The position numbers and the translations under genes were made by a program. This document shows, piece after piece, positions 5,027-6,368 of a stretch of 32,312 bases of DNA. The notes beneath the pieces are model-generated. The model was not told the DNA's origin and searched no databases. It worked only from the letters and a program-made list of their open reading frames with translations. Positions within the stretch are counted from its first letter, which is position 1; each line of letters begins with the position of its first letter. The DNA comes from Methyloceanibacter sp. Lineage in GTDB: Bacteria; Pseudomonadota; Alphaproteobacteria; Rhizobiales; Methyloligellaceae. The DNA lies in the NCBI GenBank assembly GCA_016649675.1, contig JAENXG010000003.1:1-32312 (forward strand). The letters run 5' to 3'.

Positions 5027-5152
5027 CTCGGAGTCATAGCGGAAGGGCCGCGCCAAACGGAAGCGGCCTGGAAGGAATGTCGGGTTCCGGCACAAAGCCG
5101 AACGACGTTTCAAGACTTATCCCCGCATCGCGAATCGCATTTATCCTGCTCC

Positions 5153-5206
5153 CACCTCGTCCGTTGAGGGGCGCACCATGAGGCGTCGTGACAGCGGGAC
5201 GAGGTG
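5153..5206. repeat. 10-bp perfect inverted repeat, CACCTCGTCC (5153-5162) and GGACGAGGTG (5197-5206)
   Basis: Arms read directly; 34-nt spacer. Confidence 0.7.
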
Positions 5207-5398
5207 CGGTGCCCTGCGGGCCGGTTTCGCAAGACCGGCACTCGGGCGGCGCCCGCCCGGGTCCATTACGAGGCCCCGCCAGGATGACCGTAAGGCCTTC
5301 ACCAAACGCGACCCGTTCCCTCCCGATGCGAGGCCAAACGACGGGACGCGGGGCACTTACGGCGAAAGCGCGGTCCGGCGCCGATAAATTGCCGCGAC

Positions 5399-5485
5399 TG
5401 GCGCGCCGAAAGGCGCCCGCGTGCCGCAAGGCACGAGCCAAAGGTTTGCGCTTTTCGGCGCGCCATCCCCTCATCTTGATGAGGG
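5399..5485. repeat. Composite hairpin element: 18-bp stem with one mismatch (5399-5416/5448-5465), internal GCAA-tetraloop hairpin (5420-5435), adjacent CTTG-loop hairpin (5468-5485)
   Basis: TGGCGCGCCGAAAGGCGC pairs with GCGCTTTTCGGCGCGCCA; CGTGCC-GCAA-GGCACG; CCCTCAT-CTTG-ATGAGGG. Confidence 0.75.
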
Positions 5486-5639
5486 CACTCTGGCAAGTCC
5501 CGGACGCAACCCCGTCGCGGCGATGACGTCGCGTGCCTACGAGAAGGAAGGCGACGTTGGGGAACCGGTTGCAATTGACGGCCGGGCTGTCCCAAGCTTT
5601 GTTCGTGGGCACGCAGTAGGCACAAGGATCAATCTCGCC

Positions 5640-6368
5640 ATGATCGCTGCTGACACCCATCTGCAGATCGGCTCGTTGTTGTTCGACGGATTGGACCAGA
5701 TCGATCTGACCGGCCCCTTTGAGGTTCTGTCCCGCCTCCCGAATGCGACCTACCGCGTGTTCGCCAAGACCGTCGAGCCGGTGCGCGATGTGCGCGGCCT
5801 GTGCTTGACGCCCGATGCTTTGCTAAAGGACGCGCCGCAGCTCGACGTCCTGCATATCCCGGGGGGCCACGGGCAGGAGGCATTGGAGGACGAGGAGGTG
5901 CTCTCGTGAGTGCGGCGTCAGGCGGAGGGTGCGCGATGCGTCTTCTCGGTGTGCACCGGCGCGCTGATCTTGGGGGCCGCCGGCCTGCTTAAGGGGCGCC
6001 GGGCGACGACGCACTGGGGTTCCTTCCATTTGCTGCCGTTTTTCGGCGCTGTTCCAATCGACGAGCGGGTGGTCAAAGACGGGAAGTTTGTCTTTGCGGC
6101 CGGTGTGACGGCGGGCATCGACGGGGCCCTTCACGTTGCCGCCGATCTCCGCGGCGATGAGGTCGCCCAGACCTTGCAGCTCTATATGCAATACGCGCCC
6201 GAGCCGCCGTTCGACAGCGGTACGCCGAAGACGGCGCCTTCGTCTGTGTTGGAAACCGCTCGGCGTTCGGGGGAAGCGATCACGGCACAGCGCGAGCAGA
6301 CGGCGCGGCGCGTGGCCGCGCGGCTTGGCATCGACGTGAGTCATTTGGTTTCGGGGTCAAACCGGTGA
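5640..6368 (+). pseudogene. DJ-1/PfpI family, isonitrile (cyclohexyl-isocyanide) hydratase-like, interrupted by in-frame TGA at 5907-5909
   Basis: MIAADTHLQIGSLLFDGLDQIDLTGPFEVLS...IPGGHGQEALEDEEVLS*VRRQAEGARCVFSVCTGALILGAAGLLKGRRATTHWGS...AGVTAGIDGALHVAADL. Both halves are in the same frame and each matches the family. Confidence 0.85.

Follow-up and report, generated by a model that had tools for sequence, protein, structure and literature searches.

A dispersed, structured intergenic element of Hyphomicrobiales is probably a mobile noncoding RNA gene

Introduction

What is the cluster of nested hairpins that lies upstream of an interrupted PfpI gene in Methyloceanibacter sp., a structured RNA, a mobile piece of DNA, or both? 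The hairpins were first noted at positions 5399–5485 of the window, by which we mean the whole stretch of 32,312 nucleotides analyzed here (assembly GCA_016649675.1, contig JAENXG010000003.1, positions 1 to 32,312 of the forward strand). A preliminary description left the choice between a folded RNA and a mobile palindromic repeat, and took compensatory changes as the mark of the RNA and dispersed copies as the mark of the repeat. We find that both proposals hold, in that the element is a dispersed mobile repeat with helices that covary as RNA, and that the choice between the two marks fails, as the element shows both. The known bacterial RNAs that are both large and structured are few, and almost none of them combines mobility with the lack of a protein partner. 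We favor the hypothesis, to which we assign a probability of roughly two in three, that the element is a mobile, promoter-bearing, stand-alone noncoding RNA (ncRNA) gene, the product of which would dimerize through a symmetric kissing loop.

Results and Discussion

The Hairpins Belong to the 3′ Part of a Dispersed Unit

The long stem and both hairpins are present at the coordinates first claimed. The stem is 18 nt long and 94% complementary, with one G-T as its sole departure, and the two hairpins read CGTGCC-GCAA-GGCACG and CCCTCAT-CTTG-ATGAGGG. The predicted RNA fold of positions 5380–5500 has an energy of −65 kcal/mol (z = −4.9), and none of 200 dinucleotide shuffles folds as well. The extent, in contrast, had been underestimated: the feature reaches far upstream, to approximately 5116–5538, and the hairpins form its 3′ end. 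The GCAA and CTTG tetraloops, which had been offered as a clue, proved incidental, in that these loops are not conserved across genera, unlike the long stem and the hairpin that follows it.

The repeated unit was recognized by searching the surrounding DNA against its own genome and 100 relatives, and the dispersed copies recovered establish it as a repeat family, as the preliminary description had allowed. Similarity across 18 aligned copies begins at CTTATCCCCG, a left edge common to many copies, and stops near GCATGTCT; the flanks are unrelated. All units share one plan: promoter-like sequence comes first, then a 5′ domain in which helix P1 surrounds hairpin P2, a branched middle, the long stem of the 3′ part, the second hairpin and a tail (table 1). 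There are two subfamilies, type I, to which the window copy of ~420 nt belongs, and a longer type II with other middle and 3′ sequences on the same plan (loci L129, L130, L133, L192, L196, and L236–L238).

Scanning with R1, a covariance model built on the 5′ domain, identified the family in 26 of 398 Hyphomicrobiales genomes, a scan in which at most 11 candidates were scored per genome and copy counts are lower bounds. Among 289 Alphaproteobacteria genomes R1 matched only the window's own, at least three others in that set also being Hyphomicrobiales; it matched none of the approximately 285 genomes from elsewhere in the class. A DNA pattern derived from the 5′ domain identified relatives in Pseudorhodoplanes, Bauldia, Methylobrevis, Bradyrhizobiaceae, and other Hyphomicrobiales. 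Its matches in Actinobacteria and other phyla were judged to be chance, their sequences not being read, and so were those in a Methylobacterium (L094) and an Alphaproteobacterium (L103), which on reading lacked the architecture. No match was found in plasmid and phage collections by BLAST or in viral contigs by pattern. The own genome holds copies on C19 (the window), C131, C152, C130 (truncated), and C515 (degenerate).

Evidence for Insertion between Genes

Near position 491,800 of G377:C2, two convergent genes flank a type I copy. The genome G711 carries a copy at the same site, with 90% identity throughout, and seven related genomes lack it, their alignable gene ends being 6–28 bp apart (G705, G706, G707, G710, G712, G693, and G696); in G698 the gene ends at this site are ~80 bp apart. 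We prefer insertion to deletion here, as the simpler account, because deletion would call for many independent losses. The family thus shows an insertion polymorphism, with filled and empty sites and without coding capacity, as is the case for miniature inverted-repeat transposable elements (MITEs). The unit ends are not complementary by eye. An empty counterpart of the window copy was also sought, but no relative offered usable synteny; in G001 a run of N covers the start of PfpI. Matches to the 3′ tail in G377 were considered as traces of a longer autonomous version, a candidate that we rejected given that the checkable ones lie at copy ends.

Copies lie between genes with no preferred orientation relative to them, as judged from crude open reading frame (ORF) calls, and a comparison of flanking ORFs revealed no common neighbor protein. 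These findings bear on the possibility that the element is a cis-acting leader, attenuator or terminator of PfpI, the start of which lies ~100 bp downstream in the same direction. Such a role is highly improbable: the spread over unrelated sites, without a preferred orientation or neighbor, contradicts it, PfpI itself is interrupted in the window, and the element lacks a terminator-like T run.

With fuller scoring, copies per genome within a single genus number 20, 20, 17, 15, 12, 3, 1, and 1, a contrast that offers natural material for finding both the mover and the role of the element. It also argues against a host-beneficial regulatory RNA gene, multiplied by duplication and lateral transfer with no transposition mechanism of its own. 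A fold long kept across families of one order, a retained promoter, and the position of some copies near apparently the same genes in several genomes speak for such a gene; yet the range of copy numbers, 20 to 1 between species that share a genus, together with unrelated flanks and a clean insertion between two genes, lead us to consider this explanation unlikely.

As a separate observation, four genomes of the genus have a copy near apparently the same tat-like gene cluster (L022, L023, L040, and L042), a neighborhood that would reflect either an old common insertion or a preferred site.

Selection Acts on an RNA of One Strand

Among 81 distinct copies, nine of the ten P1 pairs have changed on both sides and 97.3% of cells are paired, and the 5′ domain as a whole contains 148 double-change cells as compared with 42.8 in shuffles. 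For the 18-bp 3′ stem, examined in 24 copies, pairing holds in 97.7% of cells and double changes number 31 as compared with 10.7 in shuffles; slid controls collapse for both regions. The covariation among homologs that the preliminary description had named as a check is consequently present above shuffles in P1 and in the 3′ stem. A stem search that requires no alignment exceeded the 95% point of the shuffles in 70 of 80 copies and every shuffle in 56.

The 5′ domain contains 299 G-U pairs but only 9 A-C mismatches, and the 3′ stem 48 and 6, an asymmetry that equal selection on either DNA strand would not give. In the window the + strand folds with z = −5.2 and the − strand with z = −1.25. Given this asymmetry, and because only the + strand folds better than shuffles, we conclude that the selected molecule is the + strand RNA.

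This conclusion bears directly on the main rival explanation, a MITE or a DNA element resembling repetitive extragenic palindromes (REPs), in which the hairpins would serve a transposase as single-stranded or cruciform DNA and any transcript would be incidental. The unit is indeed dispersed, mobile and situated between genes, and its transcription is a prediction. However, a DNA element would not be expected to keep G-U pairs and not A-C mismatches, to fold unusually well on the + strand only, or to conserve a promoter-like sequence; transposon ends would not need a common fold of 420 nt in which hairpin lengths vary; and the copy-rich genomes lack a Y1 transposase. We judge this rival improbable, to about the same degree as the host-beneficial gene.

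A Palindromic Loop Suggests Dimerization

The most telling part of the element is the loop of P2, which lies outside the coordinates of the preliminary description. This loop is mostly 8–9 nt long, and in 82 of 85 copies it includes a palindrome of 6 nt or more; when distinct loops are counted, 43 of 45 are palindromic as compared with 8.2 expected on shuffling. Thirteen different palindromes occur, among them TCATGA, TCTAGA, TCCGGA, TCGCGA, CTCGAG, ACCGGT, ACGCGT, ATCCGGAT, and TTCGCGAA, and one genome can hold several of them, as G354 does with TCTAGA, TCGCGA, and TCATGA. Because adjacent bases cannot pair within one loop, the kept self-complementarity points to pairing between two molecules, and the presence of different palindromes within one genome implies that dimers would be specific to a copy type. 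The RNA probably dimerizes by a symmetric kissing loop, as the pattern of loop sequences suggests. Because the loop has remained palindromic while its sequence changed many times, self-association of the RNA can be tested directly.

The dimerization initiation site of human immunodeficiency virus type 1 consists of a short stem and a ~9-nt loop around a 6-nt palindrome. Its likeness to P2 is one of geometry only, the molecules being unrelated. Closer parallels are found among the large, highly structured, noncoding OLE, ROOL, and GOLLD RNAs: loops L9.3 of OLE and L21a of GOLLD are symmetric kissing loops with covarying palindromes, and the same palindrome argument has been made for both with support from cryo-electron microscopy (PMC12286853). 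By its sequence the P2 loop would be of this kind. The element does not belong to these families proper, having no Rfam match to them. ROOL and GOLLD, moreover, reside in phages, prophages or near tRNA islands, and OLE is associated with protein (PMC12286853), whereas the present element, unlike ROOL and GOLLD, occurs as many dispersed copies in Hyphomicrobiales chromosomes and in none of the viral and phage collections searched.

A Promoter-Like Start

A promoter-like sequence is kept at the start of the unit, sigma-70-like TTGACA...TATATT in some copies and CTTATCCCCG (also CTTATCCCC)...TACAAT in others, both kinds being present within G377. The −10-like TATCCT of the window aligns with the TACAAT or TATATT of other copies, several of which have TTGACA upstream. 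The window's own start falls below the sigma-70 consensus of a promoter-scanning tool. Some starts upstream of the 5′ domain (L072, L143, and L153) contain additional motifs: in class A promoters the −35 and −10 boxes enclose a palindrome resembling CCTATATAGG, and class B promoters of G377 hold GGGGATACSAATCCCC. Both motifs are possible repressor operators.

Known Families and the Search for a Mobilizer

A search of Rfam 15 at gathering and permissive thresholds yielded no match in the window or in type I and type II copies beyond chance or neighbor matches, and the hairpins alone likewise gave none, in agreement with the preliminary description. It was also right in seeing no protein-coding signature, as no open frame tested across the element matched a Pfam or NCBIfam family. 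The recurring ORFs are mostly the element itself, the remainder being shared host genes, and on these grounds we rejected a protein-coding reading. Predicted ORFs in such intergenic regions can thus be folded RNA misread as protein.

Y1 transposase (PF01797) was found in only 1 of 13 genomes and is absent from G377, G705, G354, and G009. The suggestion of REP-like DNA does not withstand this result, given that a REP is a 20–40-nt palindrome (PMC5082802) served by such a transposase, as opposed to an element of ~420 nt. The Br-REP1 and Br-REP2 sequences of Bradyrhizobium are, like the element, dispersed intergenic palindromes in related bacteria (PMC5082802); their consensus sequences match any copy with 7 of 20 and 14 of 40 mismatches at best. 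The multi-copy structured motif MRSC-65-2, a suspected selfish element with strong covariation, is also similar, but it is a single long stem found in diverse phyla (PMC11109978), whereas the present element is a multi-domain RNA with a promoter, found in one order.

Reverse transcription was rejected as a route, no reverse transcriptase being found in G377, G705, G711, G706, G009, G012, or G354. A retron-like reverse transcriptase with a helix-turn-helix protein upstream (L235, 2896–4378, in G699:C1) does lie ~1 kb from the only copy of its genome, a type II copy; this is probably coincidence, since most copy-rich genomes lack the enzyme.

Could the element be a stand-alone leftover guide RNA of TnpB, IscB or IS110, that is, a right-end element RNA, an omega RNA or a bridge RNA? 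HEARO, the RNA partner of IsrB (PMC12286853), and the omega RNAs of IsrB, IscB, and TnpB are likewise structured, a few hundred nucleotides long, and linked to mobility. These, however, guide a nuclease encoded by their element, whereas the copies described here share no adjacent gene and have a conserved promoter at the guide position, with no variable guide-like segment. There is no Rfam match, the TnpB zinc ribbon (PF07282) is absent from all 13 genomes, and IS110 transposase is absent from G377, G705, G706, G354, and G009. The guide-RNA explanation is largely contradicted by these results, in which IscB and IsrB were not searched, and we regard it as very improbable.

The element belongs to no Rfam family, and no account of it was found in the literature searched, most subscription journals lying outside that scope. 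A prior description may exist in the Rhizobiales-1 motif (PMC2864571) or in a "larger repetitive element" mentioned without data in PMC5082802.

Proposed Mechanism

We propose that the unit would be transcribed from its own start into a + strand RNA of ~350–400 nt, longer in type II, which would fold into the 5′ domain with P1 around P2, the branched middle, the long 3′ stem, and the short hairpin. Through its self-complementary P2 loop, each RNA would then bind a second, identical molecule in a symmetric kissing interaction, and copies that differ in palindrome would each form dimers of their own type. Machinery acting in trans, with no need of particular neighbors, would place new copies of the DNA unit, promoter included, at further intergenic sites; we infer that DNA rather than RNA moves because the promoter is copied too. 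We lean toward the view that the element persists by spreading. More tentatively, and with odds somewhat short of even, it may represent a new class of mobile ncRNA, with its own promoter, homodimers or larger RNA-only complexes, copy-specific palindromes that let each copy recognize its like, and a route of movement independent of the tested transposases and reverse transcriptases.

Several points weigh against this mobile, dimerizing ncRNA gene. Kinship of the copies inflates the covariation counts, and part of the copy sample was found by a pattern and a model that cover the region of the P2 loop, the pattern fixing the GAG 3′ of the loop and not the palindrome. The window copy is one of three exceptions to the palindrome rule, its loop, ACCATGAG, having lost the full palindrome and retained only CATG; this copy may be in decay. 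Transcription is a prediction from sequence, and the exact ends and target duplications are unreadable because the junctions and intergenic sequences have diverged too far. Finally, no mobilizer was found among Y1, IS110, reverse transcriptase, and TnpB, IscB/IsrB and other transposase families not having been searched.

Features of the Window

Table 1. Features of the type I copy in the window and the basis on which each was assigned
Feature	Positions	Strand	Basis
Whole repeated unit, one type I copy	5116–5538	+	18 aligned copies, unrelated flanks
Promoter-like start: CTTATCCCCG (5116–5125), −10-like TATCCT (5142–5147)	5116–5147	+	Aligned with TACAAT/TATATT of other copies
P1 helix: CACCTCGTCC (5153–5162) with GGACGAGGTG (5197–5206)	5153–5206	+	Covariation, 81 distinct copies
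P2 hairpin GGCGC/GCGTC, loop ACCATGAG (5175–5182)	5170–5187	+	Palindromic loop of the family; degenerate here, only CATG
Branched middle domain (predicted)	5207–5394	+	RNAalifold consensus, based on 18 copies from other genera
Middle-domain ends CGGTG and TGCCG, able to close the domain	5207–5211 and 5390–5394	+	GCGGCG/CGCCGC in the family
Long 3′ stem, enclosing the variable hairpin 5420–5435	5399–5465 (5399–5416/5448–5465)	+	Covariation, 24 copies
Second hairpin CCCTCAT-CTTG-ATGAGGG	5468–5485	+	C-run hairpin after the long stem in most copies
Tail GCGGCGATGACGTCGCGTGCCT, family form GCGATGACGnnGCATGTCT	5517–5538	+	Kept at the 3′ edge of copies

The 3′ end of many copies, GGCTGTTTGAAAATTGAATC (L139, L145, L147, L192, and others), resembles a boxA antitermination site of the ribosomal RNA type. 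In many draft genomes a contig stops within the element (L169–L171, L175–L177, L151, and L140), as expected because a hairpin-rich repeat breaks assembly. Downstream of the element, an in-frame TGA at 5907–5909 splits the DJ-1/PfpI gene, the halves of which match successive parts of PF01965, and the relative G001 has no stop at this place.
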